Of a stretch of 64,000 nucleotides of DNA, positions 6,792 to 29,137 are shown one piece after another (within the stretch, counting starts at the first letter, position 1; each line of letters opens with the position of its first letter). The stretch covers positions 4,281,001 through 4,345,000 of the forward strand of contig NZ_CP012700.1 of assembly GCF_001307295.1 (NCBI RefSeq). Reading direction: 5' to 3'. A model generated the notes under the pieces. That model did no database searches, was not told the DNA's origin, and worked only from the letters and a program-made list of their open reading frames with translations. Position numbers and translations under genes: made by a program. Origin of the DNA: Sphingopyxis macrogoltabida (lineage in GTDB: Bacteria; Pseudomonadota; Alphaproteobacteria; Sphingomonadales; Sphingomonadaceae).

Positions 6792-6865
6792 TGTCCGTCG
6801 TCAGAACATTTGGCGCAACTCGTGGCGTAAATTAGCGGAGAGCGGGCCTCGTCTGTGGTTTGATA

Positions 6866-8229: not shown

Positions 8230-8314
8230 CTTCGTTCCTTCGTCTCTACGACGAAGCCCAAATCCTCCTTACATCTCAACCTCAAATATGTGCCATTGGT
8301 GCTGACGGCGGACA

Positions 8315-9121
8315 CTGCACCGGTGTCTGGCCTGCCATGTGATAGAGGGCCAGCATCGAGTGGGTTTTGCCGCCGCCGAAGTTAGTTTGCAGTTCGACGA
8401 CAGGATCGCCGCCGCTGCCGGACAAGCGCTTTGCCGCCCCGATCAGCAGCGTGCTCAAGCCCTCTGTAAGGTAGGTGCGGCTGAAGAACTGGCGTGGATC
8501 ACGATACTCAGACGGCGCGCTGCCTGAATGGACCTTGGCGAGGTCGGCAGCGAACTCGGCCTGCTGGAATTCCCCGGTGGCGACGTCTTGATGCGGTTCG
8601 ACCACGTCTCGCCACGGCAGCAAACCCGCCACGGTCTCGACCGAAATCTCGAGGCGTTGTGTTTTACGGCGCTCCTCATTGCGCTGAAGTTCGGTGAACT
8701 TCGTCCGGAGGATGGTGTCGCGCATCTTTCCAAGCTGCTCGGCGACTTCACCCGCGCTGATGGCCTCCATCAAGCGACGCATGGAGTCGAGGGCACGCTC
8801 GGCGTCATCGTATGAGAAATTCTCATTGTGCGAGAGCTTGTTTCGGACATCGAGGAGTTCCGAAACATAGGAGCGTTCTGGGTGGCCTAGGACGTTCGCG
8901 AAAGCGTCCTTCCAGAAGGCCATCATGGTCTTGAGCAGACCTTGCTGGTCCCAGCCGACTTCTCCGGTCGAGTTCGGCCGGAGACCCTGAACGCGCTCGA
9001 TGACTTCTAATTGCCAATGACCTTTGAGCGAGGTCTCCAGCCGCTTTTCTACGAAAGGGATCAACGCCGACGGCAGCAGTTCCATGCCTTCAAAAACATA
9101 CTGGCGGGTGCTTTTTGCCAT
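8315..9121 (-). pseudogene. DUF499-family defence ATPase, 5' fragment cut by IS3
   Basis: The first 269 codons of a DUF499 protein, a large ATPase known from defence islands next to DUF1156 methyltransferases. A P-loop-like GGGKTHS motif is visible at residues 249-255 in the typical context [19 protein letters not shown]. Right after it the gene runs into the IS3 end at 8314, and the last 10 codons before the stop at 8282 come from the IS. Intact family members have roughly 1000 residues or more, so about three quarters is missing and the rest is not found elsewhere in the window. The ATG at 9121 lies 13 bp after the DUF1156 stop, in the same operon. The fragment cannot hydrolyse ATP. Confidence 0.78.
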
Positions 9122-9134
9122 GTCCCGTTCCCCC

Positions 9135-10466
9135 TCAAATATCCAAGCGGGTCTGACGATCCCCGCTCGTGTCGTGGATGGCCGCAGCCGCCTTGGTCAA
9201 CTCGGCCCAATCGGCGATCAGAGCGTTGTAGGCCGTGGCCTCTTTCGCATCCTTCCGCTTGTTGGCGCTGATGTCGTAGAGGCAGTAGGCGAGATCCTTT
9301 ACTGCCTCGGCCTGGGCGCTGATCTTTTTCAAAAGAACAGCGGTCTCGTGCGAAATGCCATCCTTCTCGTACAGACGTACCAGATGTTGGAGACACTCCC
9401 ACACCGTTAGGTGGCCATCGTTGTGCGGTTGCCAATCTTCGTCGAGTTCGTCTCGGCTAAGGATTCGCACCTTGCCGGCAGCGCTTTCAACGATACCCGC
9501 GTGCTTGACGCTCTCAACTGAGATGCCGCGTGCCGTGGCGATGCTGTTGGCCGTACCGTACTCACCAGTCTTCAACCCGTTCTGCTCGAACCACGTGATG
9601 GCGAAGCGCGTATCTGGATCAAACTCACCTTGGATGCCGCCCAGATACTCGTCGAGTTCCTTGTTAATCAGCTGGAGCGCTGTTTTAACGCTCATCGGAT
9701 TATCGTCTGACTCAAGCACAGCCTTGTATCGCGAGAATACGCCCATGCCAGGTCCGATGGCTGATTGCGGCATGTCTGCTGGTGCGATGTTAGCAGCCTG
9801 CAGCTCGGCGATCGCCGGTGGCAGTTCGCGCTTCAGCGCGCGGATGAACTCCGCACGAGTAATAACCTCTGCCGTGCTTTCCTTTTTCCGGCATACCAAG
9901 ACGACCGAGTTTGCAAGCACATTTTTACCAGCCTTGAAGCCAGTGTCCCGCTCAGTTCGCATAGGCCATGTGCCAACAACAACTTGTCCAGCGCGAATAA
10001 CCGCCTCCAGAAAAGTGGCCCAACCTGTTGATGAAATTCCTTCTTTTTCAATTTCACTCTGCTTAAAGGCGTAATAAATTGTCGCCGGAAAATCGGGATT
10101 TGTCGTATCAGCAATTCTTACCATCGCTCGCGACATCCCATTCATAAAAAACTCTTCCGCCGAAACCTTTCCGCCATGCCGATACGGCGAGGCTACCAGC
10201 TCAGAAGACTTAGGAGTTTGGACGGTAGAAAAGTTTTCCGGGAAAATGACTCCAATAGTTTTTTTCATCCATATGTAGAAATAGTCGGATAAGTCGGCAT
10301 AGTTTATGTTGTCATAATATGGAGGGTCGGTGGAAAATACCGCTCCGCTTGGCACTCCGTCCAATTCCTGGGCTTCTTTTTGAACAACAGTTCCGGTTTC
10401 TCTCGGCACAAAATATTCCAAGACCTTGGAAACCCATTCAACGGCCCCACCGAAATTACCCGTTGA
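9135..10466 (-). pseudogene. DUF1156 DNA methyltransferase, 3' part (split by IS256)
   Basis: The C-terminal portion (about 440 residues) of an adenine-type DNA methyltransferase. Catalytic motif IV is seen as STDPPYYDNINYADL at about residue 530 of the restored protein, followed by the target-recognition and C-terminal regions. It is separated from its N-terminal half (11889-13345) by a 1422-bp IS256-family element with an 8-bp duplication (10459-10466 and 11889-11896). Joining both parts after removal of the IS and one duplication gives 2781 bp, one frame of 926 aa. The AdoMet-binding motif lies in the other half, so this part alone is inactive. Confidence 0.85.
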
Positions 10467-10513
10467 GTTAGCGTCCGCGCTCGTGGTGTAATTTCCGGTG
10501 TAGGCGATGGTGT

Positions 10514-10545
10514 ATTCCGGGGTGGGGCATGCCCCACCCCGGAAT
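10514..10545. repeat. 32-bp perfect palindrome inside the IS256 left end
   Basis: A perfect palindrome with half-site ATTCCGGGGTGGGGCA lies 47 bp inside the left IS end, upstream of the transposase start. The same sequence occurs at 30159-30190 in copy 2. A transcript crossing it would form a very stable hairpin. This could block read-through transcription or translation of the transposase from outside, as is known for some other IS families; that role is inference. Confidence 0.85.
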
Positions 10546-10623
10546 GCGGCGTCGCTGGTGGCCACCGGGTTCATCGTTATGGTGGAGTTTGCACACTTCA
10601 ACCGTGACGAAGAGGAGTTCCCG

Positions 10624-11838
10624 ATGACCGAGGACAGATTACTGATCGAAGAGCTGGCTGCAAAGGGCGGCCAACCGGATTTTTTGCGCACCATCGCCGA
10701 GAACGTGCTGCAGCTGATCATGGAGGCCGACGTTGATGGCCTGATCGGCGCGGGTCGCCACGAACGCAGCAGCGAGCGCGCGACCTGGCGCAACGGCTAT
10801 CGCGACCGTTCGCTGGATACCCGGGTAGGCACGCTGAACCTGAAAATCCCCAAGCTGCGTGCTGGGTCCTATTTTCCGGGCTTCCTTGAGCCCCGCAAGA
10901 TGGTCGAGAAAGCGCTGGTTGCGGTGATCCAGGAAGCGTGGATCGGCGGGGTCAGCACCCGGCGGGTCGATGAACTCGTCCAGGCCATGGGCATGACCGG
11001 CATCTCCAAGTCCACCGTCTCCAAGCTTTGCAAGGACATTGACGAGCGCGTCCATGCCTTTCTGAAACGCCCGCTCACCGGCGAATGGCCGTATCTCTGG
11101 CTCGATGCCACCTATCTCAAGGTACGCGAAGGCGGGCGGATCATCAGCGTTGCCGCAATAATCGCCATGGCCGTCAACACCGAGGGCCGGCGCGAGATCG
11201 TCGGCCTGCATATCGGCCCCTCGGAAGCGGAGGTCTTCTGGTCCGACTTCCTGAAGGACCTTGTTCGGCGCGGTCTTACCGGCGTGAAGCTGGTCATCTC
11301 CGATGCTCACGAGGGCCTCAAGGGCGCGATCACCCGCGTCATGGGCGCCACCTGGCAGCGCTGCCGGGTGCACTTCATGCGCAATGCCCTGTCCTATGTG
11401 CCCAAGGGCCAGAACACTGTCGTCGCCGCCGCGATCCGCCAGGTCTTCCTGCAGCCCGATCAGAAAAGCGCAACGCAGGTCTGGCGACAGGTCGCCGACC
11501 AGTTGCGCACCCGTTGGCCCAAGCTCGGCGCCTGCATGGACGAGGCCGAAACCGACGTGCTCGCCTACACCGGCTTCCCCACCCAGCACCGCACGAAGTT
11601 ACACTCAACCAATCCGCTCGAGCGGCTCAACAAGGAGGTCAAGCGCCGCGCCGACGTCGTCGGAATCTTCCCGAACGAAGACAGCATCATCCGCCTCGTC
11701 GGGGCTGTGCTGATGGAGCAGAACGACGAGTGGCAGCTCCAGCACCGATACATGCAGATCGAAGGCATGGCCGAACTCAACCAACCCATGATCGAGGAGG
11801 AAAATCAGCCCCTACACATCACCGCCAAAGCCGCCTGA
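10624..11838 (+). CDS. IS256-family (mutator-type) transposase, copy 1
   Basis: A 404-aa DDE transposase. The N-terminus has the family-typical ENVLQLIMEADVDGLIGAGR region, and the catalytic triad is visible in YLWLDATYLKVREGG, LVISDAHEGL and NPLERLNKEVKRR. I chose ATG 10624 because it is preceded by GAAGAGGAG at good spacing and gives the normal family length. The open frame extends upstream to 10507, but that part crosses the terminal palindrome and is not family-like. Intact and identical to the copy at 30269-31483. Confidence 0.95.
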   Translation: MTEDRLLIEELAAKGGQPDFLRTIAENVLQLIMEADVDGLIGAGRHERSSERATWRNGYRDRSLDTRVGTLNLKIPKLRAGSYFPGFLEPRKMVEKALVAVIQEAWIGGVSTRRVDELVQAMGMTGISKSTVSKLCKDIDERVHAFLKRPLTGEWPYLWLDATYLKVREGGRIISVAAIIAMAVNTEGRREIVGLHIGPSEAEVFWSDFLKDLVRRGLTGVKLVISDAHEGLKGAITRVMGATWQRCRVHFMRNALSYVPKGQNTVVAAAIRQVFLQPDQKSATQVWRQVADQLRTRWPKLGACMDEAETDVLAYTGFPTQHRTKLHSTNPLERLNKEVKRRADVVGIFPNEDSIIRLVGAVLMEQNDEWQLQHRYMQIEGMAELNQPMIEEENQPLHITAKAA

Positions 11839-11888
11839 CGATGGCCCACGGCCACAGCCGAAATTACACCACCTTGACGGACGCGACC

Positions 11889-13345
11889 CCCGTTGACGAT
11901 GAAAACACATTCGCCTCAGCGTAGTCCCACACCATAGGAAGCGACTGTCGCCCGAATGTTTGAACAATAAAACCTCCTCCCCAGGGGGTCTGCGATGACC
12001 AGTAGTTCGCCGACCGTCCAATCGCCAAACCGAGGTAGAATCCTACCGCTTCGCCATAAGCTCTTGCTGCACCACCATTCGAGGCCAAACCTAAATTATC
12101 CACGGCCATGCCGGCCTTTGAGGCGTCTTGCGTCGCCTTGTCGACCACGGCAGAAACCAGGCCTGCAAAACAATTAAGAGCAACGAGCTGCCTCGTAGTG
12201 AATAGGTCTCCAAAATTGGCAATACCGTAATCTACCGTCCAGAAGTTTCTGGGGTCGTTGGGCAGTTGGACATCTGGACGCCAGTCTGGCTCCGCACTCC
12301 GAGCTACCTTCTCTTGAATTTCATCAGGCGCGACGAAAATCATTCCACCTTTTCTTTCAACGACCACGCCCATAAGGGCTCTTCCCATCTTCCCTGACAT
12401 CCCACAATTCTTGATATACTCAGTAGGTATTGCGGTATTAGAGATAACGCACCGAAAGTTTGCGCCTCTGCCCGCCTTCGTCCCTTCCTTTGCAAGGGCG
12501 ATCTGACTGGCAGTTCCGCCGCTGTGCATTGAGTAGCAAATTGTCTTTGCTTGCTTATCGACAATCGGCTCTACCCATGCTTCCTTTCCAGCCTTGGTGC
12601 TCAAAACAAAGCTCGAAGCAATTGGAACCTGCACGTCCGCAAAGGCGGGGTCTGGACTGGGAACGGTTCGAGTCCAAATCCAAGCGATCACTGTTCCTTT
12701 CCCGCCGCCATACTCCTTCGGTAGGTCCACTTGCGGATATAGATGGCCGATACGCTCCCATGCTTTCTCGCGCATCCATTCGCCGTAGTATTTCACGTCC
12801 TCGGCCAATCCTTCGACATTGCGGTAGAACGATCGCTCCTTGAGACCGGGATGAATGGGGGACAAATCTCTAAACTTCGGTGGGATCTCGACCATTGCCT
12901 TGCCGATCATGACCGCGACCGGATTCAAGTCAGACCCATAGGCAGGCAGACCGAGGCGCTGCGCCTCTAGAGGGATCGACCCACCACCCGAGAAGGGATC
13001 ATAGACCGGCGGCAGTTCGCCCCCGCAGCTCTTGCGGATTTCGCTGCGGGCACGCTCCAGAACCTCCTCGTTGGTCGAGTTCTCCCATTTCACTAAGTCC
13101 TCAATGATGGTGAATAGCCGCTGGCGCTCACGCTCCTGATCTTCGAGGGTAGGGAACTGATCTGAATGGCTGGAGGGATCATCCACCAGTTGTGCAAACA
13201 GAACGGCTCGGCACGCAGCAAGTGGGCGACGTGCCCAATACAGGTGAAGCGTGGAGGGATGGCCATGGCGAATTGATTTTTCCCGCACCGAAGCGGCGTT
13301 AATTGCCTCTAATGGAAGCGCGACCTCAATCAGTTTTTTCTTCAT
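11889..13345 (-). pseudogene. DUF1156 DNA methyltransferase, 5' part (split by IS256)
   Basis: The N-terminal 485 codons of the methyltransferase. Residues 1-60 form the DUF1156 domain (IEVALPLEAINAASVREKS, then HLYWARRPLAACRAV), and AdoMet-binding motif I is YDPFSGGGSIPLE at about 115-127. Natural sequence ends at the IS256 insertion; a few foreign codons follow before a stop at 11864. The ATG at 13345 overlaps the stop of the upstream PUA/ASCH-like gene by 4 bp. In intact systems such enzymes methylate adenines, probably to mark self DNA, and are paired with DUF499 ATPases. Here catalysis should be lost because motif I and motif IV are on separate pieces. Confidence 0.87.
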
Positions 13346-13788
13346 TCTGCACTACCCACGAGCGCGCCTTCGAAGGACGCCTCTAAAATTGAAAAGCTTT
13401 GCGGAGGATTGAATCCGAACTTTGCGTTCAGGTCGGATAATCTCTTGGGTTGATCGAACAGGACCGGTTTCCCAATACGGATCGCATGAACTGTTCCGTT
13501 GTGGCCTATGTATTCAATAAGTTCATTTTCAGTTATAGCCCCATCATTCCTAAATAACTTAGCCTCTTCGAGGGAAACCTCGGTGATAGATCCAACAGTC
13601 GAAAATCCGACAATAGATTTTACGGGAACACCAATATAAAAAAACACTTTATCAGGTAACTTTATTGGCCTTCTCTTCCTGAAGAACACGGAAATCTCTC
13701 CACGGCGCAATGGCTCCTCCCATCGCCCATTGAAGGAATAAACGACCGACGGATTCTTCTTTGTGTTAGTCGTCGAGGTCATAAACAA
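13342..13788 (-). CDS. PUA/ASCH-like domain protein
   Basis: A 148-aa protein that looks like a stand-alone PUA-superfamily (ASCH-like) domain. It has the pattern EISVFFRKRRP, then KVFFYIGVPVKSIVGFSTVG, the strand-basic-strand arrangement of that fold. Such domains bind RNA or modified nucleotides, and in defence islands may sense modified DNA; the role here is inferred. It overlaps the end of the upstream sacsin-like gene by 17-23 bp (ATG at 13788 or 13782) and overlaps the DUF1156 start by 4 bp, so all three are co-transcribed. I know no named family for the full sequence. Confidence 0.6.
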   Translation of the reverse strand: MFMTSTTNTKKNPSVVYSFNGRWEEPLRRGEISVFFRKRRPIKLPDKVFFYIGVPVKSIVGFSTVGSITEVSLEEAKLFRNDGAITENELIEYIGHNGTVHAIRIGKPVLFDQPKRLSDLNAKFGFNPPQSFSILEASFEGALVGSAE

Positions 13789-16700
13789 GCCTGTACGTTG
13801 CGGGATGGATGGTCAGTTCGCCGCCGTCGCGCAAAGCGCGCAGGCGGGCACCCGTCATCTCGACGGGACCACCTTCCGGGTTGATGAGAATGAACGAATA
13901 GAGGTCCGGCTTCTGGTCCAGCAGGCCCCAAACGTCAGCTTCAAGCTGGAGCGGTTCGTGCTCCAAGCAATGGTCTTTGGGATAGTAGTGCCGCAGGATC
14001 TCGCCGCCCACCGAGCGGCGCTCCCACGGAAAGCGCGTGCCGTTGCCACGGCCTATCCAGCTTCCGTCCGTATGGAAGAAGCGATCCTCGCCATCGGCCT
14101 TATAGCCTTGGGCCAACGCAAACCGCGCCATCACGCTCGGACGGGGCGGCTTCGGCGCGGCCCGGGGCCTGGTCGCCACTTCCGTTTCGATCAGCTCTCG
14201 CTCTGGCTCCCCGGCCGATGACTCAGCTGTGGGCTGCGTTTCGGGCTCATCCTCTTGCAGGTAGAGATATTCCCCAGCGACCGGCTCGCCAACACTGTTC
14301 GCCTCTTCCGCAAGCCCGTCGATACCATCGTCATCATCGGGTTCGGTGACGGGCTGGACCATCGCTGCGACGACGATGTGCTCGGGGCCGAGGGTGAAAT
14401 TCTCTTCGAGATATTCCCTGATGTCCTCCGGTGAGCGCTCGAACGCATACGCCAGCGCCGCACGAATATCCGAACTCAGGCTCCTGCCGATCTCTTCAGG
14501 CACTCTCTTGGCGAGCTTGGCCTTGGACAGCGGACTGACAAACAGCTTGCGCTCGAGCCATAGAATGTCGGTGAGCCGCGCGGTGCCGGCCGGGACGCCA
14601 TCGATATACGGAACGACCTCCAACTTTGGAGTCTGGACCCAGCTCGTCGCAGCGATCGCCTCCGCCAGCGCCCGCACACGCTCGGTCTCTCCGGCGTCGG
14701 CAAGCTCAATCCGTCCGAGTTGATTTCCGAACGCGGTGAGCCAGTCGCGGCGATCATCCATGCTGGCGAGCAGCGACGGCTGATTGAAGTGTTCCTCGAC
14801 AAGGTCCGAGAGCGCCGGCAATGCCGAGAATGGTGACGCCTGCACGACTTCTCCCGACAGGCGCTGAAAATCTGCGGTCTTGCGCTTGACCCATTCGTGC
14901 AGGTGGCTCCACCGGAACAGGGTCTGCATGCTTAGGCCATAGGCGAGCGTCTCAACGGGCGCCCACTCGCCCACGAGGTTCAGCCAGTGTCCGCACTCCT
15001 CCCAGATGCGCGTGGGGTAACGGACCAGCAGGGTGCGAACCCGCCGGGCGTCGTCGGCCGACAGCCCCTTTCCCGAGGCCAGTGTCCCGAGCCATTGCAG
15101 CGCAAGGTCCGCCGATGGGCGATCCGCGACACCGACACGGTGCCACAGGCTGAGATCTAGCACCGACGCGCGCACGACGGCAGCGCCGGGAACATCCTCC
15201 TCGTCCCCTGCCAGGAAGACACCACCGGACGTCACCCACGTCCCGTCGTGGGCGAGGATCAGCTTCTCCGCCTTGAAGGCGGTTCTGATGTTCTGAGCGT
15301 CGGCGGTCGAGCATCCGTCGAGCATCTGATCAAGGCGACGATACCATTTCTCAACTTCATGGGCTGGAGCCGTGTCGGATTTGGCCAGGGCGCGCAGCCG
15401 GTCGAGCAAACGCTCGGGACCGCTTGGGGTACTGCGGACGCCCAGAAGGTCAAGCAGTGGTCGGGTGGTTTCGCGATCAAGCAGCCCATGCACGAAAGGC
15501 TCGACATCGATCAACGCCTCCGTTTCCGGCGTCCTGCGCACCAAATCTGCCGGAAGCTGGACCATGTTGCGGGTATCGGGAAGGCAAGGCTTGGCTCGCA
15601 ACTTCAGCAGCCAATCGGTCAGCAGGCGCTCGGATGAAACCGATCGCGTGGACCCGGTGGTCGCTACCTGCAACAGCCGAGCGCTGACGGCCCGCGACCA
15701 ATAAGTGTCGCGCTGATCCAGGATCTTGCCGACGATCTTCGTCCAGATGCCTGCGTCCGTCTTCGCCAGCACCTCCCAATGCCGCCAATAATCCGCAGGG
15801 AAATCCCAGTCCTCAATGACGAATTGGTTGGTGACATAGGGATAGTAGAGCGCGCTGCGGGCGCCGCGCGCCTGCGCTTCCGTTGTGAGCTGCTGTCGCC
15901 CGTATAGGCTCTGCCGCTTCTGGACCAGGGGCGCCATCGTCTGAAGCCCCGAACGGCCAGACGACACCCAGCGCAGCCAATCCTCCCGCGTGCAGGATTT
16001 GAAACTCGCAACATAGTCACCATGCAGGAGTTGCGCCTTTCGGACCGTCTCCGGCAGTAGCTCCTCCAGCGCGCCGTTCTCGTCGAACAACACGCCCTTA
16101 CTGATCACCCGCAGTGTTCGGTCAGCGCAGGCATATCGGAAAGATTCGCCGATCGTGACGCCAAGCTTGGCAGCGATCTGGGCAAGTTGGACGCACTCGG
16201 CAAGTTTCGGCTGATCGGAACCGAAATAGTCAACGGCAACCCGCTCGATCACGGCGTTGACGTCGCTTGTCCCGTCGAGGCCGATCTCCTCCAGCACCGC
16301 GAAGGCCGCCTCAACCGGGTCGTTGTGGTTCTCTCCCGCCGCCTTGTCACGGCGCTTCTCGGCAAGGAACCGGGTCCAGTTCTGGTTGAGGACGATCAGA
16401 TGGCTGGCGAGAAACTCCCAATCTTCTTCCGACTGAAGCAGCTTCTTTTCGCCGAGCCGAACGATCTCCGACGCCGCGTAAAGCACCTCCTTGCCCTGCA
16501 CAGGCACGATCCGCAGGCCATCGGTGTCGTGACACTGCCAGCCCGTCACCTCGGGCGCGATATAGGCCCACAAGTTCAACAGGTGCCGCCAGGTCGCGGG
16601 CCGCGGCAAATGATTGGTGCGCAGGCGTTCGAGCAAGTCGGACTTTGAGAACTCCTCGACCAGATCCCAGTGAACCAACTTGGTCTGGTTCTTCGCCGAT

Positions 16701-17986: not shown

Positions 17987-18474
17987 AGCGGCGCCTCCAG
18001 CCTCGACGGCGTGGCGACCAGTTCGGGTCCGCGCGGCGGGGCCGTCTTGCGCCAGCCGCCCTTGACGGTCTGGATGGCGGAGATCGGCAACCGTTGCGCG
18101 GTTGGCAGTTCGTGCAGATCGCAAACGTGCCAGAACACCGCCCAATGGCCCTGATTGTCGGACGTATATTGGCCCGTCGTCGGCGGGCGATGCGTCATTC
18201 CCTTTGAATGCTTGCCGTTTCCACTTTCCTCACAGCCGACATACCAACCCAACCAGGACGCAACAAAACTGAACTTAGCCGCCACGTCCTCGTGCGACGG
18301 ATAGATCAGGACCGGCACCCGGGCACAGCCGCGCAGTTCATCGACCTTGCGAAACAGTTCCCACTTCCGTGATCCGAAAGCGACGAAACCCTTGGCGTTG
18401 GCGATAGCTCCCCCCGATTGAAGGTGCTCAAGCGGCACGGGGGCCAAGATGGAAAAATCCGCAATGTCGGTCAT
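17983..18474 (-). CDS. unknown 163-aa protein of the defence operon
   Basis: I do not recognise this 163-aa protein. It starts 8 bp after the helicase stop and its own stop overlaps the sacsin-like gene by 4 bp, so it is co-translated with that ATPase and may be its partner. It is rich in beta-prone stretches (VPVLIYPSHED, FSFVASWLGWYVG, HWAVFWHVCDLHEL) and has a basic C-terminus. This could be another PUA-like or EVE-like fold, but the match is loose. No signal peptide, membrane helix or catalytic signature is visible. Confidence 0.65.
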   Translation of the reverse strand: MTDIADFSILAPVPLEHLQSGGAIANAKGFVAFGSRKWELFRKVDELRGCARVPVLIYPSHEDVAAKFSFVASWLGWYVGCEESGNGKHSKGMTHRPPTTGQYTSDNQGHWAVFWHVCDLHELPTAQRLPISAIQTVKGGWRKTAPPRGPELVATPSRLEAPL

Positions 18475-18482
18475 ATCACCCC

Positions 18483-21400: not shown

Positions 21401-21989
21401 GATTGCCCGAACGCGAGTTCTCGATCATGTCGCGGGAGAGAATGTCGAACTCGAGATTGAACTTTTGTCCGAGCTCGTCCTGCCACTGCTCGACCAGGCT
21501 GCCCGGAGCAACAACTAGACAGCGTTCAAGATCGCTGCGGGCAATCAGTTCCTTCATCAGCAAACCGGCCATGATGGTCTTGCCCGCACCGGGATCATCC
21601 GCGAGGAGGAAGCGAAGCGGCTGGCGCGGCAGCATTTCACCATAGACCGCCGAAATCTGGTGCGGCAGCGGATCGACAAGGCTCGTGTGAATCGCCAGAT
21701 ACGGGTCGAAAAAATGCGCCAACTTGATGCGATTGGCCTCCGTCACCAAGCGCAGCAACGCCCCATCGGCATCGAACGACCAAGCCCGTCCGTTTTGCTC
21801 AACTTCAAGGCGATGCTCGTCGTCTCGGTACAAAATGGCCTCTGCCACCGCACCGTTGTGATCACGAAAAACGACACTGATCGCCTGGTCCCCGATCCAG
21901 TCGACGGAAACAACATGCACAGCTTGCGCCGAAGCCACGCCTCGAACGGACGCGCCGTTCTTAATCTCCTCAAGCTTCGCGGCCATCAT
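18483..21989 (-). CDS. SNF2-type helicase with DUF3883 domain (DrmD-like)
   Basis: An 1168-aa superfamily-2 helicase. Motif I is ADDPGAGKTIMAGLL at residues 130-144, motif II DEAH at 233-236, motif III LMSATPHNG, and the second RecA domain shows IHGGVSREER, NDAAGEGVNLQRG and EQRFGRIHRIGQ. Near the C-terminus is a DUF3883 domain with LRFIEVKGRIDG, a restriction-nuclease-like D...EVK arrangement. This architecture matches the DrmD helicase of DISARM and related loci, but no DrmA/B/C genes are present. GGGGAGAT lies 5 bp upstream of the tandem ATGATG at 21989. It follows the WYL regulator gene by 16 bp and is intact. Confidence 0.88.
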   Translation of the reverse strand: MMAAKLEEIKNGASVRGVASAQAVHVVSVDWIGDQAISVVFRDHNGAVAEAILYRDDEHRLEVEQNGRAWSFDADGALLRLVTEANRIKLAHFFDPYLAIHTSLVDPLPHQISAVYGEMLPRQPLRFLLADDPGAGKTIMAGLLMKELIARSDLERCLVVAPGSLVEQWQDELGQKFNLEFDILSRDMIENSRSGNPFSDRDRLIVRLDVLARNEELQEKLMSAREWDLIICDEAHRMSATYFGGEVKYTRRYQVGQKLGQVCRHLLLMSATPHNGKEEDFQLFMALLDGDRFEGRFRDGVHYADTEDMMRRLTKEELLKFDGRPLFPERRARTVKYQLSEGEAALYTAVTEYVRTEMNRVQRFAEGDGKKRNNVGFALQILQRRLASSPAAIYQSLKRRRERLENELGEARLASKGRRAGATEPAINADMLRNIEEYGQEEIDELEDLISTGATTAETVEQLALEVETLKGLEAMALGVLRSGVDTKWSQLNRILDDDLMIDAAGNRRKLIIFTEPKDTLHYLLDKVRARLGNTEAVEVIHGGVSREERRKVVERFMQDKDMLVLIANDAAGEGVNLQRGHLMVNYDLPWNPNKIEQRFGRIHRIGQMEVCHLWNLVAADTREGEVYARLLEKLEAAREALGGRVYDVLGELFDGVALKDLLFEAIQYGEQEDVKARLFQQVDGAVDQGHLIELLRRRALTNDTMPEARVEELRLEMERAEALRLQPHHIQSFFVEAFQHLGGKIKRREEGRWEVAHVPVRIRERDRQIGTGAPLQTQYERICFEKDKINQQPVAAFVCPGHPLLDAVISLVREQYEQIMRQGAILVDDTDAGDALSAIFLLEHVVQDGRVTSAGKPHVISQRLQFAAIDKAGNTVNAGIAPHLNLRPAKPEEIDSVRDLLDESWLTTDLEKAAIRFATVELAQGHVAEVKARRLPEIEKVEQEVRARLKKEINYWDSRAFELKEEERAGKKTRLNWQNAQRRAEELADRQKRRMDQLERERFISSQPPRVRGGMVVIPRGLLEARRASSAPSHFAEDPAARRAIELAAMEAVMAAERALGNEPVDVSAQKIGYDIASHDPRSGHLRFIEVKGRIDGADSVMVTRQEVITSLHEPEKFVLAIVQVASGFAQAPRYVRGPLVEREPSFLETAIQFDLRRLLERAQEPA

Positions 21990-22005
21990 TCATCTCCCCG
22001 GGCAC

Positions 22006-22890
22006 TCATAGCTGAAGCTCCGCTCGTTCAAGCGCGTCTTCAGTTTCCTTGCGATTTATAGTCACGATATGCTGAGTGTATGGACTTTGCTTTGCAGCAT
22101 CACCAAGCAAACCAAGGCGCTTCAATACATAGAAGAGCATCGCATAACGAACCGTGAGTACGTCGTTGCCGTGATCTAATCCGTAATCTTTGGCGACAAC
22201 CTGCTTCTGACTGGCCGTCAGAGCGGGATGCGGACCAATAATCACGTCAAAATAATTGTTCCAGAGCCAGTCCCGCTCACCGAGTTCTCCCGGTTCACTC
22301 TTGGCGCCAGCATCCAGAACGCGTGGCAGCAGGAAATCTTTGAACTTATGCTCTAGATGGCAATAGGCTCGGGCGTGCCAGCGAAAACCATCATAGCCGA
22401 ATGCGTGGGGGGTGATGCGACGCCAGATTGGGTCTGGCCGAGCCTTGTTCATCGACTGATAGAAAATGTCGATAGAGACGCCTTCGCGGGTGGCGTCGAG
22501 AATCTTGCGCAGGACAGCTATGTCTATGTCCCGTCGAGGTGCCATCGCGACATCAGCACCAGGAAAAACCGAAATCCACGAATCGCTTGCCGGCACAGAA
22601 CCTTCGGCGATCGAACGAAGCTGCGAGAGGTAGATGTAAGGGTCAGGTTCAAGGAAACGCAGGACAAACCGTTCCGCGGCGACATAGCGCTTGGCGCGCG
22701 TGTCATATTCCATGTTGCCCGGAGCGCGCTCCTGATACAGGGCCAAATCCTTGGACGCCTGCGGCACCGACACCCCAAACGTCTCAACGAGGGCGGCGCG
22801 GTTTATAGAGCCCTCCCAGAACAGTCGGAACTCGATGAATTCGAGTCGGCGCTCCACCCCCCACTTCAGCACCGTCGCGGCTTCCGCCAT
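22006..22890 (-). CDS. BrxR/CapW-like WYL-domain transcription regulator
   Basis: A 294-aa regulator with an N-terminal winged helix (LEFIEFRLFWEGSINRAALV, then VSVPQASKDLALYQE) and a WYL ligand-sensing domain (ITPHAFGYDGFRWHARAY). This arrangement is typical of BrxR/CapW repressors that head BREX, CBASS and other antiphage loci. The frame is open from 22965, but ATG 22890 has a GAGG ribosome site 8 bp upstream and removes a non-family extension. It is the first gene of the minus-strand defence operon and lies divergent to the AddB-like gene. A near-perfect inverted repeat sits 31 bp upstream of the start (22921-22944), so it probably represses both directions until phage stress. Confidence 0.85.
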   Translation of the reverse strand: MAEAATVLKWGVERRLEFIEFRLFWEGSINRAALVETFGVSVPQASKDLALYQERAPGNMEYDTRAKRYVAAERFVLRFLEPDPYIYLSQLRSIAEGSVPASDSWISVFPGADVAMAPRRDIDIAVLRKILDATREGVSIDIFYQSMNKARPDPIWRRITPHAFGYDGFRWHARAYCHLEHKFKDFLLPRVLDAGAKSEPGELGERDWLWNNYFDVIIGPHPALTASQKQVVAKDYGLDHGNDVLTVRYAMLFYVLKRLGLLGDAAKQSPYTQHIVTINRKETEDALERAELQL

Positions 22891-22920
22891 CGTGTTCGCC
22901 TCACGCAAGTCAGAATCAAA

Positions 22921-22944
22921 ACTATATGGACAATCCATAATAGT
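22921..22944. promoter_or_regulatory. probable operator of the WYL regulator
   Basis: An inverted repeat with arms ACTAT-ATGGA and TCCAT-AATAGT around the spacer CAA; the arms match except for one extra base. It lies in the 203-bp region between the divergent WYL regulator (start 22890) and AddB-like gene (start 23094). The local AT-richness fits a promoter region, with TATTAT-like hexamers on the minus strand. Its position is right for an autoregulated BrxR-type operator; binding is inferred. Confidence 0.6.
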
Positions 22945-23093
22945 CCGTGTATTTATTATGCTCATTGCGGTCTGTCGTCAATGGGCGATCAGATTCGGGG
23001 CGGGAGGCAAAGCATGCGGCGGCAATGGTGGGAGCGCCAGAGCGCCGGCATGATTCTCAGCCCAAGGCGGAGTCCGGGAGGAGGAAGACGGTT

Positions 23094-25748
23094 ATGGCCC
23101 TTTCGCATCGATCCACTCTGGTCGTTCATGGCCGCCTTGCCATGCGTGAGAGTCGCCTGGCGGCGGCCCGCAGCGGCCGGCACGGTCTTCAGATTATGTC
23201 CTTCGAGCAGGCCGCAGTTCGGCTGGCGGGCGGCTTTGCGCGGGCCATTGATGACGACAGCCTGCGTGCGGCTATCCAAGCAGCTCTGCCCGCTACCCCG
23301 ATGGGAGAACTAGAGGAAATCAAGGCGCTTCCGGGCATGATCGATGCGGCGGTCGACACGCTTCACAAAGCATGGCGTGCGGGCATCGATCTTGCCACTC
23401 GCGCGGCCGACCATCCACGTCTCGCCGCTTTCGCGCGCCTGGAAGCTGCCGTCCTCGAACAGCTTCCGCCTGGCATGATGCGACCTCTCGACATCGTCAT
23501 GGCCGCAACCGCCCGTATCGCCCATGCGCAGACGGTCTTTGGTTCGATTGAGATCGCTGGCCTTACCGAACTCTCGCCCTGCTGGCGGCCGTTGCTCCAG
23601 GCCCTGACGGCTCATATCCCCGTGCAATGGACGGCCGGCCCAAGAAGCGTGCCAGCGTGGCTGGAGGGCACTGGCGTCACGATCGCGCGCGCACCGGAGC
23701 AGACGCCGGGGGTCAGTTCCGTTAGCGCGGCGACATCCTATCACGAGGCCATTGAAGCAATGCGCTGGGCTCGAAGACTACTCTCTTCGGGCGTATCGGC
23801 CTCGGAGATCGCCATCGCGACCGCTTCGCCCGCAGACTACGATGATCATTTCCTGGCCCTGCGCAACGATGCCAATATAGACCTGCACTTCGTCCATGGT
23901 ATCCGCACTGTCACTACCCGCGAGGGTCAGGCTGCTGCTGCGCTGGCCGACATTGTGATCCGCGGCCTGTCGCAGTCGCGGCTACGCCGCCTCGCAGCGC
24001 TCTGCCGGGACAGCGGGCCTTTCGAGACCCTTCCCGAAGGCTGGCTGCGGGTGCTGCCGACCGATGCGCCGCTTTCGACCGCGGAAGCATGGAATCGCCT
24101 GCTGGCCAGGCTGACGCCGGAGGATTGGCCCGACGGCGCCGACCATGTTGCGGCGCTACGCATGGCAGTCGAGATCCTTGTGAAGGGATCAGAAGCCGCC
24201 AGCGAGATCGGAGAAGCCTTCCTCGCGGGCCGCGCTCTCTCGATCTGGCGCAAAGCTCTGCTCGCCGGTCCTGCTGCCTCGATCGATGCAACATTGGAAA
24301 CCCTGAAGCAGGACGACGAACTGGAGGCGTGCGTCTCTATCGCCTGGATGCCGGCCAGCGCGCTCGCGGCATCGCCGCGTCGCTTCGTGCGGCTCCTCGG
24401 GCTCAATTCCTCGCGCTGGCCGCGCGGAATCACCGAGGATCGGTTGATCCCGCACCATATCATTCCGACCCCTGTGCTCGACCCTCTGCCAGTCAACCTC
24501 GCCGACCGCCGTGACTTCGAGACGATCCTCGCGACGACAGCCGATACCGTTGTCCTGTCGCGCGCCCGGCGTGACAGCGACGGGCGTCTGCTCGGTCGCA
24601 GTCCTCTGCTCGCCGGGCGTGGCGACGAAACCTATCTGCGTCGCAACGCGACGCCGGCGCACGCCTTCAGCGAGACAGACCGCCTCATGGCCCGGCCCCA
24701 AGAGTTCGCCGCCGATCCGCAAGCAATCGGTGCGCTGAGTTGCTGGCGGGACTGGCGGCAGGCCGAGATCACACCCCATGACGGGCTCGTGCGGGCGGAT
24801 CATCCGCTCGTTCTCGCCATCCTCGGCCGCACCCAGTCGGCAAGCTCGCTACGCCGTCTGCTGCGCAATCCGTTGAGCTTCGTGTGGGTCTATGCATTCG
24901 GATGGCGTGAACCGCAGAGCAGCGCCGAACCGCTCGTGCTCGACGCGCTCGGGACCGGCGATCTCGTTCACTTGGTTCTCGACCGCGCCTTGCGTGACCT
25001 CGAGACCGGAGAGGGGCTCGCCGACGCCGACGCCGCGACTATCGAAGCCGCAGTTGCGCAAGCTGCACAAGCCGTCGCCGCCGATTGGGAAAGCGAGCGC
25101 CCGGTTCCGCCAGCCGTCATCTGGAGCCGTACGCTTGAGGACGCTCGCGTGCTGGCGGGACGCGCCTTGGCTTACGGTGATGATGTCCTTCCGGGCACAC
25201 GCTCTTATGGAGAGGTGCCCTTCGGTGGCTCCGAGCCGAAATCCGAGGCAGAGACGCCCTGGGATGCGAATGCGCCGGTCGCTATCCCCGAAACGGGCTT
25301 CAACATTGCGGGCTATATCGACCGGCTCGACATCTCGGGCGATGGTAAGCGCGCCCTCGTACGGGACTACAAGACCGGACGGCCGCCGCGCGGCGAGATA
25401 CGTCTGAACGGTGGACGCGAGCTTCAGCGCTGTCTTTACGCCTTCGCGGTGAAGGCGCTTCTCGGCGACGATGTCGCCATCAGCGCCTCGCTGCTCTACC
25501 CGCGCGAGCCCGTCGATCTCCAGCTCGACGATCCCGAGGCCGTGCTGGCGGAGATCACAGGCTATCTGCGCGCGGCACGGTCGAGTCTCGCCGGAGGCGC
25601 GGCCCTGCCTGGCCCGGACACCGGCAGCGACTATGACGACCTCGCCTTCGCCCTGCCGGCCAATGCCAGCGCCACCTACTGCAAACGCAAAATGCCTGCC
25701 GCCACGGAGCGGCTTGGCGAAGTCGCTCAGGTCTGGGAGGCGGAATGA
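23094..25748 (+). CDS. AddB-like PD-(D/E)XK nuclease of the defence locus
   Basis: An 884-aa protein related to AddB-type subunits. The C-terminal region has a RecB-family nuclease core with GYIDRLDISGD, ALVRDYKTGRPP and ELQRCLYAFA, giving the D...DxK...Q/Y pattern. The N-terminal half is a helicase-like shell without an intact Walker A motif. Only one Cys of a possible iron-sulphur cluster is evident (YCKRK near the C-terminus), so it differs from classical AddB. ATG 23094 follows GGAGGAGGAAG. The 3' end overlaps the UvrD-like gene (ATGATGA), a tight two-gene operon divergent from the WYL regulator. A housekeeping AddAB origin is unlikely given the island context, though not excluded. Confidence 0.8.
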   Translation: MALSHRSTLVVHGRLAMRESRLAAARSGRHGLQIMSFEQAAVRLAGGFARAIDDDSLRAAIQAALPATPMGELEEIKALPGMIDAAVDTLHKAWRAGIDLATRAADHPRLAAFARLEAAVLEQLPPGMMRPLDIVMAATARIAHAQTVFGSIEIAGLTELSPCWRPLLQALTAHIPVQWTAGPRSVPAWLEGTGVTIARAPEQTPGVSSVSAATSYHEAIEAMRWARRLLSSGVSASEIAIATASPADYDDHFLALRNDANIDLHFVHGIRTVTTREGQAAAALADIVIRGLSQSRLRRLAALCRDSGPFETLPEGWLRVLPTDAPLSTAEAWNRLLARLTPEDWPDGADHVAALRMAVEILVKGSEAASEIGEAFLAGRALSIWRKALLAGPAASIDATLETLKQDDELEACVSIAWMPASALAASPRRFVRLLGLNSSRWPRGITEDRLIPHHIIPTPVLDPLPVNLADRRDFETILATTADTVVLSRARRDSDGRLLGRSPLLAGRGDETYLRRNATPAHAFSETDRLMARPQEFAADPQAIGALSCWRDWRQAEITPHDGLVRADHPLVLAILGRTQSASSLRRLLRNPLSFVWVYAFGWREPQSSAEPLVLDALGTGDLVHLVLDRALRDLETGEGLADADAATIEAAVAQAAQAVAADWESERPVPPAVIWSRTLEDARVLAGRALAYGDDVLPGTRSYGEVPFGGSEPKSEAETPWDANAPVAIPETGFNIAGYIDRLDISGDGKRALVRDYKTGRPPRGEIRLNGGRELQRCLYAFAVKALLGDDVAISASLLYPREPVDLQLDDPEAVLAEITGYLRAARSSLAGGAALPGPDTGSDYDDLAFALPANASATYCKRKMPAATERLGEVAQVWEAE

Positions 25749-28700
25749 TGAATAGCGTGTCCAAGGTACTGCAAGACGACGGTGCGCGCCGCGCCGCGAT
25801 CAGCCTCCATGATCGCTCGATCCTGGTCGAGGCTGGCGCGGGCTCAGGCAAGACCGCCGTCATGGCTGGCCGCATCGCTGCCATGCTGGCCGAAGGCGTC
25901 GCGCCGTACTCCATTGCCGCCGTCACCTTCACCGAACTCGCAGCGAGTGAGCTGCTATCGCGTGTCCGCGAGTTCGTCGCCGATCTCTCGGTCGGCACGA
26001 TTGCGACCGAACTGCGCGTGGCATTGCCTGATGGGTTGTCCCAGGCCCATCGCGACAATCTCGCCGCCGCCAGCGCAGCGATCGACGAAATCACCTGCTC
26101 AACCATCCACGGCTTCTGCCAGCGCCTGATTAAGCCCTATCCGGCGGAGGCAGACATCGATCCTGGCGCAGGCGTCATGGATCGTAACCAGGCCGATCTC
26201 ACCTTCCTTGAGATTGTCGATGGTTGGCTGCGCGAACGCCTGTCGGGCGGTCAAGGCGGTGTCCTGGCCGAGATGGTGCTGCACAGCCCCGGTGAGACCG
26301 TGGCGCTCATCCACAAGATCACCGAGAATATGCGCCGTCGCCCCACACTCACAGCGCCGCCGGTCTCTCCACTTGACGGCCACCTCGCGGCGTTTCGGCA
26401 AGCCACAGCGGATTTCGCGAGCTTCATGGAAGGCGTGGCTGCGGCCGAGCCAGAAACGGTTACAATCGTCGAGCGGCTGACCGAAATGGCGGCCGACGTG
26501 GCGAACGGCCCTAATCCTGCGACGCCTGCGGGCCTTGTTAGGCTCCTGACCGCGCGACCACACCCGGACCTTTGTACCAAGACCGGCACTTTCGCGTCCT
26601 ACCGCAAAAAGGGCAAATGGGCCGCTACAGCCAAACAGGCTGGCCTCTCCAAGGCCGATGGCGACCGGCTGAACGACACCGCCGAAACACACTACACGTC
26701 TTGTTGCGACGCTTGGGTTACATTGACGCAGGCCGTCGCCGGTCATGCCCTGGCCGCGCTGATCGACGAAGCGCGTCCGATCCTGCAACGCTACCGCGAC
26801 CACAAGCGCGCCAGCGCCCACCTCGACTTTGACGATCTGATTTTTGCTGCTCGCGACTTGCTCCGCGACCATGACGCCGTGCGCCAAGCTCTGGGACAGC
26901 GTTTCGCCCATGTCCTCGTCGACGAGTTTCAGGACACCGACCCCCTGCAAACAGAAATCTTCTGGCGGTTGTGTGGCGAGCCGGTCGATGACCATGATGA
27001 CTGGACGCGGTTCCAAATCCGGCCGGGGGCGCTCTTCCTGGTCGGCGACCCCAAGCAGGCGATCTATCGCTTCCGGGGCGCCGATGTCGGCGCCTATGTG
27101 CAGGCACGTGATGCCTTCCGCGACCAGGACGCCGACAGTCTCCTGTCGATCTCAACCAATTTCCGCTCCTGCGCCTCGATCCTCACATTCGTCAATGAAC
27201 GCTTTGAGGCCGTTCTCTCGGCCGATGGCCAGCCGGGCTTCACCGCTCTCGACCCGTTCCATGACGATCGGGGCGGCCTGTGCGTGGCGGCTCTAGACAT
27301 CGCCGTGGCCGACGAAAACGGCAAGGCCAGCGCCGAACAGCAGCGCGACGCCGAAGCCGATGCTATCGCCGAGCTGTGCGCCCGGCTGATCGAAAGCCAC
27401 CCCATCATCGACCGTCGCAGCGGCGCAGAGCGCCCCTGCCAGCCGGGCGACATCGCCTTGCTGGCGCCAACGGGCGCGGAGCTGTGGCGCTATGAGGAAG
27501 CCCTCGAACGCCGCGGCATCCCTGTCGCGACCCAGGCCGGCAAGGGGCTGTTCCGCCGCCAGGAGGTGCAGGATCTGATCGCGCTGACCCGCGTTCTGGC
27601 CGACCGCCGCGACACGCTCGCGCTCGGCGCGGTGCTGCGCGGGCCGCTGGTTGGCCTCACCGAAGAAAATCTGCTGGACATCATCTGGGGACTTCCCCGC
27701 TCGGAGGAACAACCGGATCGGATTCCGCGCCTGGACCTCAGCATCGACCCTGCTTTCATCATGCATCCGCTCGCGCGCGATGTCATCGAGCGGCTGCAAT
27801 CGCTCTCCCGGCGCGGCAACAGCACGACCCCGCACGAGCTACTCTCGCAGGCCGTAGACGTGTTGCGCGTCCGTCCGCTTCTCCTTGAGCGTCACCGCGG
27901 TCAGGCCGAGCGCGCGCTCGCCAATGTCGATCTCTATCTTAGTCTGTCGACTGGCTACGCTGTGCGCGGCCTGCGCGCCTTCTCCGAGGCGATGACAGCC
28001 GCGTGGTCCGACGAGGCCCGCGCAGTTGAGGGACGACCCGACGCGCAGGAGGAAGCGGTAGCGCTCTTCACCATGCACGCGGCCAAGGGGCTGGAATGGC
28101 CGATCGTCATTCCGATCAACACCATGACCGGCGTCATGGCGCCCGACAACGCCATCATCGAACGTCAGACCGAGACCTTCTATTGCCCAGTCCTGGGTGT
28201 TACGCCCGAGGGCTACGAAACAGCGCGCCAAGCAGAGAAGGATGAGCTGGACCGCGAACGTATCCGGCTTTGGTATGTCGCGGCCACCCGCGCCCGTGAA
28301 CTCCTCGTCTTGCCTCGGCTCGATGTCACACCCTCGAAATCGGCCTGGATCGGTCTCGTCGACCTGTCGCTGGCCGACCTGCCAGGTCTGGACGTATCTC
28401 ACCTGCCTGCCGATCTCGCAGCCGCCGGTGCGAGCGCAGACAACACCCAGACACGCGTGAGCTTTGCCGAGGAAGCCGAAGCCATCGAAGCCGCGCAGGC
28501 GCGGTTGACCTGGCTTGCGCCCAGCCGTGACGAAAATGCCGCCGGGACCGTACTGCGAGAAGAAGAAACCTCCCTCTGGACGGGATCGTCCGATGACCCC
28601 GGCCCCGTGCTGGAAACCGCTGCCCTCGTACAGGGCGGCCGCGAGCGCGGGCTGATCCTCCACAAGCTCATGGAAGAGGTGCTGACAGGTGAAGTCCAAG

Positions 28701-29137
28701 AAGCGGAAGCCGCCCTGACCAAACGAGCTGGCGAGCTTATCCGTGCCCTCGGCAAGGCTCCGGCTGCCGACGCGGCGACAGGACTGTCGGCGCTGGAATT
28801 GGCGGCCTGTGTGACCCGAACTCTTGCTTTGCCTGAAATCAAAGCCTTGCGGCCGGAGCTTGTTGCCGAATTTCCTGTCTACTCCGCACAGATGTCCGAC
28901 GGCGTGGAAATCGCAACGGCCGGGATCGCTGACGCCCTGACCCTGATGGCCGAGGGCCGCCCCGCCGTCGTCGTGGACTGGAAAAGTGATGTGACGGCGG
29001 CGGCGGAGACACTCGATCATTATCGCGCGCAGGTGAGGGCCTATCTCGACGTGACCAGAGCAGAGCGCGGCTTGATTGTGCTGATGACACCCGGAGTGGT
29101 CATACCAGTTCTGCCCTCACAAAGCTCCGCGTTGTAA
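25745..29137 (+). CDS. AddA/UvrD-like helicase-nuclease of the defence locus
   Basis: A 1130-aa superfamily-1 helicase fused to a C-terminal PD-(D/E)XK nuclease. Motif I is EAGAGSGKTAVMAGR at residues 29-43. Motif II is DEFQDTDPLQ, motif III GDPKQAIYRFRGAD, motif V FTMHAAKGLEWP, and motif VI WYVAATRARELLVLP. The C-terminal nuclease shows ADALTLM, VVVDWKSDV and HYRAQVRAYLD. All catalytic motifs are present, so this is probably an active DNA-unwinding nuclease that pairs with the overlapping AddB-like protein. The start may be either of two adjacent ATGs (25745 or 25748). It is followed after 72 bp by the SIR2 gene on the same strand. Confidence 0.88.
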   Translation: MMNSVSKVLQDDGARRAAISLHDRSILVEAGAGSGKTAVMAGRIAAMLAEGVAPYSIAAVTFTELAASELLSRVREFVADLSVGTIATELRVALPDGLSQAHRDNLAAASAAIDEITCSTIHGFCQRLIKPYPAEADIDPGAGVMDRNQADLTFLEIVDGWLRERLSGGQGGVLAEMVLHSPGETVALIHKITENMRRRPTLTAPPVSPLDGHLAAFRQATADFASFMEGVAAAEPETVTIVERLTEMAADVANGPNPATPAGLVRLLTARPHPDLCTKTGTFASYRKKGKWAATAKQAGLSKADGDRLNDTAETHYTSCCDAWVTLTQAVAGHALAALIDEARPILQRYRDHKRASAHLDFDDLIFAARDLLRDHDAVRQALGQRFAHVLVDEFQDTDPLQTEIFWRLCGEPVDDHDDWTRFQIRPGALFLVGDPKQAIYRFRGADVGAYVQARDAFRDQDADSLLSISTNFRSCASILTFVNERFEAVLSADGQPGFTALDPFHDDRGGLCVAALDIAVADENGKASAEQQRDAEADAIAELCARLIESHPIIDRRSGAERPCQPGDIALLAPTGAELWRYEEALERRGIPVATQAGKGLFRRQEVQDLIALTRVLADRRDTLALGAVLRGPLVGLTEENLLDIIWGLPRSEEQPDRIPRLDLSIDPAFIMHPLARDVIERLQSLSRRGNSTTPHELLSQAVDVLRVRPLLLERHRGQAERALANVDLYLSLSTGYAVRGLRAFSEAMTAAWSDEARAVEGRPDAQEEAVALFTMHAAKGLEWPIVIPINTMTGVMAPDNAIIERQTETFYCPVLGVTPEGYETARQAEKDELDRERIRLWYVAATRARELLVLPRLDVTPSKSAWIGLVDLSLADLPGLDVSHLPADLAAAGASADNTQTRVSFAEEAEAIEAAQARLTWLAPSRDENAAGTVLREEETSLWTGSSDDPGPVLETAALVQGGRERGLILHKLMEEVLTGEVQEAEAALTKRAGELIRALGKAPAADAATGLSALELAACVTRTLALPEIKALRPELVAEFPVYSAQMSDGVEIATAGIADALTLMAEGRPAVVVDWKSDVTAAAETLDHYRAQVRAYLDVTRAERGLIVLMTPGVVIPVLPSQSSAL

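Follow-up and report, generated by a model that had tools for sequence, protein, structure and literature searches.

A damaged Hma operon in a probable composite island of Sphingopyxis macrogoltabida, beside an AddB/AddA-like pair that elsewhere accompanies other defence systems

Introduction

DUF499 genes found together with a SNF2 helicase and a methylase were noted in 2013 and 2020 (PMC3710099, PMC7641849), described as the Hma system in 2021 (PMC8565338), and reclassified in 2026 as a DUF499 "Type-1 BR" system with a HEPN-fused ATPase and a helicase-nuclease (PMC12839542). In the roles that have been proposed in the literature, self DNA is marked by HmaB, scanning and assembly of the complex fall to HmaC, and HmaA acts as helicase-nuclease. 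Here we describe an Hma operon in Sphingopyxis macrogoltabida that lies next to a gene for a WYL regulator and an AddB/AddA-like gene pair, at positions 8315 to 29137 of a 64,000-nucleotide stretch of NZ_CP012700.1 (positions 4,281,001 to 4,345,000). We refer to this whole stretch as the window.

Three further lines of work bear on the locus. Genes embedded in Hma operons have already been published (Payne 2024, as cited in PMC12988326 and PMC11411939). The regulators CapW and BrxR are repressors with inverted repeats as their binding sites (PMC9122588, PMC9122601), and CapW represses in both directions (PMC9122588). The idea of a portable ancillary helicase-nuclease has a precedent, since UvrD-Cas4-like fusions, for which an ancillary role was proposed, were described beside type III restriction and WYL genes in 2017 (PMC5704561).

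Results

Organization of the locus

The region from 8315 to 29137 is supported as a defence locus. According to the listing of open reading frames (ORFs) and the family scans, the minus strand encodes, from right to left, the WYL protein, HmaA, a protein of 163 amino acids, a sacsin-like protein, an ASCH/PUA-like protein, HmaB, and HmaC, and the plus strand encodes the AddB-like, AddA-like, SIR2, and HerA proteins in that order. Gene order, strands, the defence assignment, and the identities of the SNF2/DUF3883 helicase and of the 163-amino-acid, sacsin-like, ASCH/PUA-like, WYL, and AddB/AddA-like proteins were as given in the first-pass annotation. We consider it likely that the window contains a composite defence island, in which a damaged Hma operon is joined to a portable unit consisting of the WYL gene and the AddB/AddA-like pair (AddBA). 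The features of the locus are:

8282..9121, minus strand: hmaC remnant, with HEPN_Swt1 (E 1.2e-26) and the first part of the DUF499 ATPase
9135..10466, minus strand: C-terminal piece of hmaB, HmaB profile positions 527-959 of 967 (E 2.9e-162)
10467..11888, plus strand: IS256-like element in hmaB, Transposase_mut, with an 8-bp target duplication
11889..13345, minus strand: N-terminal piece of hmaB, DUF1156 (E 2.8e-31), HmaB profile positions 8-533
13342..13782, minus strand: cargo gene for a small ASCH/PUA-like protein, PDC-M11B-like
13766..17986, minus strand: cargo gene for a 1,406-amino-acid sacsin-like GHKL ATPase with a TmtA-related N-terminus, P_loop_sacsin (E 5e-22)
17983..18474, minus strand: cargo gene for the 163-amino-acid protein, without a family match, conserved in relatives
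18483..21989, minus strand: hmaA, SNF2 helicase with a C-terminal NOV_C/DUF3883 nuclease-like domain, HmaA profile 1589 bits over 4-1167
22006..22890 (proposed start; ORF to 22965), minus strand: WYL repressor of the CapW/BrxR family, WYL in Pfam, PDB 7tb6 and 7t8k
22920..22955, no strand: imperfect inverted repeat, proposed WYL operator, 1 mismatch to the consensus, between the WYL gene and addB
23094..25748 (proposed start; ORF from 22947), plus strand: addB-like gene, PD-(D/E)XK nuclease, PDDEXK_1 (E 1.3e-17)
25745..29137, plus strand: addA-like gene, UvrD helicase and PD-(D/E)XK nuclease, PDB AddA 3u44 (E 7e-32)

The minus-strand operon, previously thought to match no named system, is identified by its PADLOC profile scores as a disrupted member of Hma, alias the Type-1 DUF499 "BR" system (HmaA, 1589 bits; the HmaB pieces, 620 and 540 bits; the HmaC N-terminus, 175 bits). 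The SNF2 helicase has the C-terminal nuclease-like domain of HmaA (NOV_C, E 1.9e-21), and both halves of the DUF1156 methyltransferase HmaB match the profile. The DUF1156 and DUF499 genes were correctly recognized in the first-pass annotation, but it missed that hmaB is split by an insertion sequence (IS) and that hmaC is truncated. An identity as DISARM or BREX was rejected. The score for DrmD was 395 bits versus 1589 for HmaA, and among the matches listed for 13 proteins in or beside the locus (the best 25 families for two of them) there was no DrmB or DrmC, DrmA matched only on the HmaA helicase, and neither PglZ nor BrxC was present.

The reading frames of hmaA, the cargo genes, the WYL gene, addB, and addA are open. 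Of the ATGA stop/start overlaps that had been reported through the middle of the operon, those at the junctions of the 163-amino-acid and sacsin-like genes and of the ASCH-like gene and hmaB were recovered, and the sacsin-like and ASCH-like genes also overlap, but hmaA and the gene for the 163-amino-acid protein do not.

Partner systems of the AddB/AddA-like pair

In an alignment of 54 AddB and 54 AddA proteins, the helicase motifs and both nuclease sites showed at least 95% conservation. The best model for the AddA-like protein gave 292.5 bits, which is below the curated cut-off of 860.75 bits for alphaproteobacterial AddA. The AddB-like protein had no match in PDB and no matching model in PADLOC (2023). 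The pair was scarce: a sample of 385 genomes from the class contained it 9 times and a sample of 398 from the phylum 3 times. The two samples overlap and both include the genome of the window, and all matches were within the same class. AddB was also encoded on 60 plasmid records, and among the 50 of these that were listed a single one, from Desulfosarcina, was from outside the class.

We compared the contexts of AddBA in 26 of the 60 plasmid records, selected by hand among the 50 listed, and in 8 genome stretches. Genes for Azaca (8 records), Shango (4), or BREX (2) were present in 14 of the 26 plasmid records; we take Azaca, Shango, and Tiamat to be the names behind the PADLOC labels Zac, Sng, and Tmt. 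One of the 8 Azaca records contained divergent genes that were 26% to 32% identical. Genes for type III restriction (L118), a CBASS-like system (L122, CBASS-type), Gabija (L125), a set of methyltransferase, helicase, and endonuclease genes identified by annotation (L130), and a ThiF operon were found in one record each, and SIR2 genes were found in L103.

The arrangement differed between partners. In L111, L126, and L136, genes for BREX type 1 were found with a WYL gene and divergent addBA genes, as in the layout of the window. The Azaca genes followed addA in L101, L110, L112 to L115, and L128, occurred together with a WYL gene in L117 and L102 (a ZacC piece), and were weakly similar and divergent in L132. 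Genes for Shango immediately preceded addB in L105, L116, and L129 and lay a short distance ahead of it in L119 and L121. The WYL gene was absent beside AddBA in the Shango copies and in most of the Azaca copies. In L107, which is the same record with the same coordinates as plasmid match H1, Azaca, AddBA, WYL, and Hma genes were situated side by side. Among 30 plasmid records that matched ZacB, 10 of the 11 from Alphaproteobacteria and none of the 19 from Cronobacter were among the AddB matches listed (50 of 60).

Pairwise comparisons of loci with different partners show that the AddBA unit moves as a block between systems. The Hma locus L029 and the Shango plasmid L116 shared 8.8 kb at 96% identity, ending near the start of addB. 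Between the Hma locus L106 and the BREX plasmid L111 the shared block was 10.5 kb long (93%) and extended into the WYL gene. Likewise, the BREX locus L136 and the Hma locus L049 shared 8.9 kb at 93%, and the Azaca locus L101 and the Hma-plus-Azaca locus L107 shared 9.3 kb at 92%. A gene for a 1,113-amino-acid DEAD/DEAH helicase with weak PADLOC matches was located after addA (L126:15074-18415; also in L106, L111, L116, and L136), irrespective of whether the context was Hma, BREX, or Shango, and was the third gene in several of the shared blocks.

A tree of AddB with 54 rows required at least 17 changes of partner state, as compared to a mean of 30.4 and a minimum of 25 after shuffling, and the 40 rows with known partners required at least 14 changes (shuffles: mean 19.0, minimum 16). 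The partners of AddBA change often, with some tree signal remaining. Left out of the tree were L109, which is a shorter copy of L136 from one genome, and L011, L016, L041, and L107, for which the extracted AddB reading was shorter than 600 residues.

On rhizobial plasmids, genes for multiubiquitin and ThiF proteins were observed before addB (L110:6482-8821, L112 to L115, L127, and L128), mostly with a DUF6527 gene and with a separate UvrD helicase upstream.

The WYL regulator and a shared inverted repeat

Sequence matches in PDB place the WYL protein in the CapW/BrxR family (CapW 7tb6, E 2e-60; BrxR 7t8k, E 1e-30; also 7tb5 and 9c5g). An alignment of the gaps between the WYL gene and addB identified a 36-bp imperfect inverted repeat that was common to Hma- and BREX-linked loci. 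The copy in the window, at 22920-22955, had 1 mismatch to the consensus, with 0 such copies expected by chance. With at most 6 mismatches of 25 allowed, the repeat lay no more than 500 bp from the WYL start in 31 of 63 WYL loci, and it was found in none of 52 loci without a WYL gene and nowhere in 305 kb of shuffled sequence. It was located near the WYL start in 25 of the 32 WYL loci with addB, including all three loci with BREX as well as L102 with Azaca, and in 6 of the 31 without addB; L006 also carries it. Scans of the gap for perfect palindromes gave nothing consistent.

The conservation of this repeat in the WYL-addB gap, together with the kinship to CapW/BrxR, supports, but does not prove, that a single repressor site, the predicted operator, controls both the defence operon and AddBA, as the first-pass annotation had suggested for the regulator. 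A clearly diverged and more palindromic repeat was observed at the same place before the WYL gene in two loci (L033:9057 and L034:8984), where operator and regulator may be changing together.

Disruption of the Hma genes and variability of HmaB

An IS256-like element of 1,422 bp, flanked by an 8-bp target duplication, splits hmaB at 10467-11888. Its second copy, at 30112-31533, begins near codon 301 in the frame of the SIR2 gene. The two copies, in hmaB and apparently in the SIR2 gene, are 100% identical and have different 8-bp duplications, a sign of recent transposition. A search for the uninterrupted SIR2 frame of relatives did not recover it.

The hmaC gene is cut at about residue 269 of 1,098, and covers only positions 3-102 of 941 in the HmaC profile. 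Complete HmaC proteins in the relatives were 1,095 to 1,111 amino acids long, with one of 1,018. The homology of hmaC to its relatives begins or stops at 8315, and an IS of a second type, with imperfect terminal repeats (15 of 20 bases matching), appears to end at 8314. When the genome was searched with the HmaC profile (E <= 0.001), no piece was found besides the remnant in the window, and hence no complete HmaC. Because hmaB is split by one IS and hmaC is cut short beside another, the Hma copy in the window is probably inactive.

Relatives of HmaA were collected by a pattern scan of a species-genome collection, and the best 80 of 210 confirmed relatives were used, a set that more distant Hma systems fall outside. 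For comparisons of HmaA, HmaB, and HmaC, 46 of the 80 loci were included, while 34 with an HmaB of less than 900 amino acids, an HmaC of less than 1,000 amino acids, or a protein cut by the end of the locus were dropped. The pairwise identities of HmaA correlated with those of HmaC (r = 0.88) but much more weakly with those of HmaB (r = 0.32), because residues ~241-520 of HmaB are hypervariable. In the 60 pairs with at least 93% identity in HmaA, the median identity was 0.73 for HmaB and 0.91 for HmaC. Within the variable region of HmaB, the median identity was 0.43 in 26 pairs with the same cargo and 0.40 in 640 pairs with different cargo, showing that the target-recognition type does not follow the cargo. 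The pattern is consistent with target-recognition parts being swapped independently of the cargo, in the manner of restriction-modification systems. A short hypervariable stretch was also seen near the C-terminus of HmaC (~961-1040) in the 46 relatives; it corresponds to the RRM-like region of DUF499 proteins that has been described as fast-evolving.

Exchangeable genes between hmaA and hmaB

The slot between hmaA and hmaB was measured in 74 of the 80 loci; L082 was dropped because its hmaB is inverted, as were 5 loci in which hmaB was not usable. Eight slots were empty (at most 20 bp), 2 were short, and 64 were filled (more than 300 bp). The ORFs of at least 70 amino acids in the slots formed 20 sequence clusters, 9 of which were single. 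A sacsin-like protein was encoded in 24 of the 74 slots (one fragment), the 163-amino-acid protein in 13 (one partial), and the ASCH-like protein in 5, and in none of the 74 were all three present. These genes are exchangeable cargo and not the fixed parts that the first-pass annotation had taken them to be. Further occupants of this slot were a DUF4917 gene, a GmrSD-type gene, a gene of the HEC-07 family (in L016), and one related to HEC-05 (in L007).

A similar layout was found in a Chelativorans locus (L005), which resembled the window without the ASCH-like gene and was collinear with it at 93% identity over 16.4 kb, from the sacsin-like gene to the SIR2 gene, with a more diverged hmaB. Outside the set selected by HmaA, the sacsin-like protein was encoded in a single genome (L086, with hmaA and hmaB alongside) among 295 others from the order, and on 3 plasmid records, and Hma genes adjoined it in each of these cases. 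In 36 loci with a measured slot, enough upstream DNA, and at least 85% identity in HmaA, the presence of AddB was associated neither with the sacsin-like cargo (Fisher p = 1.0) nor with the 163-amino-acid cargo (p = 0.13).

The 163-amino-acid protein had no match in Pfam, NCBIfam, or PADLOC at the cut-offs used and none in PDB, and it was 64% to 92% identical in 11 aligned relatives. The ASCH-like protein matched PDC-M11B in PADLOC and, with a six-sequence profile, the PDB group of 5guq (E 6e-14), which we take to be an ASCH protein. Assignment to the PDC-M11 pair was rejected, as M11B occurred without M11A among the matches listed. The sacsin-like protein had no match in PDB; residues 103-423 of its 1,459-amino-acid ORF matched TmtA (197 bits). 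It was rejected as a full TmtA, the match being partial (best stretch, 73-397 of 1486 profile positions).

Flanking genes

A SIR2-HerA gene pair at 29210-33488 comes after addA. The flanking features are:

6792..8314 (ends approximate), minus strand: IS of the second type, rve/HTH transposase ORF 6866-8071 (Pfam rve, rve_3, HTH_32)
29210..30111, plus strand: SIR2-domain gene, apparently interrupted at about codon 301
30112..31533, plus strand: second copy of the IS256-like element, identical to the first, with a separate 8-bp duplication
31860..33488, plus strand: HerA-like ATPase, partner of SIR2

A TrbI-like conjugation gene (3084-4217) near a transposase gene (4836-6191) suggests that the island lies on or near a conjugative element within the chromosome. 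A tRNA-Arg gene is located at 35546-35622, with a partial 47-bp copy of 91% identity 292 bp away (35868-35914), a possible attachment site or tRNA remnant.

Discussion

The Hma operon and its embedded cargo are already known, and the portable AddBA unit is the less expected part of the island. Among the papers listed in searches of open-access full texts, as judged from titles and the starts of abstracts, none described an AddAB-like pair shared by Hma, BREX, Azaca, and Shango; most subscription papers and bioRxiv preprints are outside this coverage. We tentatively propose, as a possibility that falls short of being probable, that CapW/BrxR-AddBA is a general plug-in: a mobile machine for degrading DNA ends, with a common operator in many copies, that Hma, BREX-1, Azaca, and Shango recruit interchangeably as a shared destruction arm, apart from the Chi-governed AddAB of repair. 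For the function of the operator, the enzymology of AddBA, and its cooperation with a partner, we infer the following as the most likely mechanism. A dimer of the WYL protein would bind the inverted repeat between its own gene and addB and hold down both divergent operons until a ligand produced by stress or infection releases it. The partner system would stall or cut foreign DNA, and the ends exposed in this way would be degraded by AddBA, acting apart from the AddAB that the cell uses for repair.

If this is true, a portable AddBA would explain how foreign DNA could be eliminated by systems such as BREX and Hma, whose route to DNA destruction is a matter of debate, and effector modules would be shared among named systems rather than owned by one of them. 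It also offers a concrete regulator and DNA site for testing. The decayed Hma copy in the window is by itself of little interest.

Several observations weigh against the reading as a composite island with a portable AddBA that works in the inferred way. AddBA is optional, being carried by 22 of the 66 Hma loci with 7 kb of upstream DNA, and it was found in 22 of the 38 loci with at least 85% identity in HmaA but in none of the 28 below. Seven of the 26 plasmid loci had none of the query systems, including 3 unannotated records and L123 with AbiE genes, and only 6 of 27 Shango plasmid records (at least 60% identity) were among the AddB matches listed (50 of 60). Partners still follow the AddB tree to some extent, which means that they are not freely exchanged, and a WYL gene was found in 28 of the 54 rows in the AddB tree but not in the other 26. 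The repeat is imperfect and was missed at the cut-off in 7 of the 32 loci with both AddB and WYL, and its count is not independent evidence for the loci that served as source of the consensus, since the consensus was built from some of those counted. Finally, defence genes cluster anyway, and the counts of AddBA neighbours stand without a background from unrelated island genes.

AddBA could instead be a complex that works on its own in defence or plasmid maintenance and occupies the same islands as other systems without cooperating with them, which we consider somewhat unlikely. The many unrelated partners, the plasmid loci without query systems, and the fact that 39 of the 60 plasmid records were typed as conjugative would agree with independence, but the inverted repeat and divergent layout common to Hma and BREX operons, and the operon-like junctions with Shango and Azaca, speak against it.

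AddAB family enzymes act in recombinational repair. AddBA could accordingly serve as a repair back-up that processes double-strand breaks caused by the nuclease of the partner in the host or plasmid, protecting from self-damage and not attacking phage, and a gene for a peptidase of the SOS response adjoins the pair in L130. However, a second, diverged AddA (29% identical) is already encoded elsewhere in the genome of the window, and both nuclease motifs are conserved, although either role would allow this. We regard the repair back-up as unlikely.

A single integrated machine composed of the Hma genes, the three small operon genes, and a dedicated AddBA, for which the tight spacing with ATGA overlaps, the one regulator between the two sides, and the near-complete set in L005 could be cited, is highly improbable and as an obligate unit is rejected, because cargo and partners exchange: AddBA was absent from 44 of the 66 Hma loci and accompanied BREX, Azaca, and Shango genes elsewhere, and 8 slots were empty and none held all three cargo genes. 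The description of the pair as "dedicated" in the first-pass annotation is contradicted.

As for the known systems, the window resembles Hma and the Type-1 BR systems (PMC8565338, PMC12839542) in the order and domains of HmaA-HmaB-HmaC, in the HEPN domain fused to the DUF499 ATPase, and in the NOV_C/DUF3883 domain on the helicase. Unlike the Hma systems described, it has three genes between hmaA and hmaB, a broken hmaB and hmaC, and an attached WYL-AddBA unit. The extra genes within the operon are reminiscent of the Hma-embedded candidates (HEC), but the 163-amino-acid and sacsin-like proteins match no HEC model and the ASCH-like protein matches PDC-M11B. The WYL protein is similar to CapW and BrxR in sequence, in having an inverted repeat as its candidate site, and in its divergent genes, and differs from those described in being common to AddBA copies linked to Hma, BREX, and some Azaca genes. 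AddBA shares with AddAB/RecBCD the two-gene AddB-AddA order, the UvrD helicase, and a PD-(D/E)XK nuclease in each subunit, but is mobile and sits beside defence systems, and its AddA-like protein scores below the curated AddA cut-off. Like the fusions in PMC5704561, it combines a UvrD helicase with a PF12705 nuclease, there as an ancillary gene of restriction systems, but whereas that is a single fusion protein, AddBA is a two-gene pair found with Hma, BREX-1, Azaca, and Shango.

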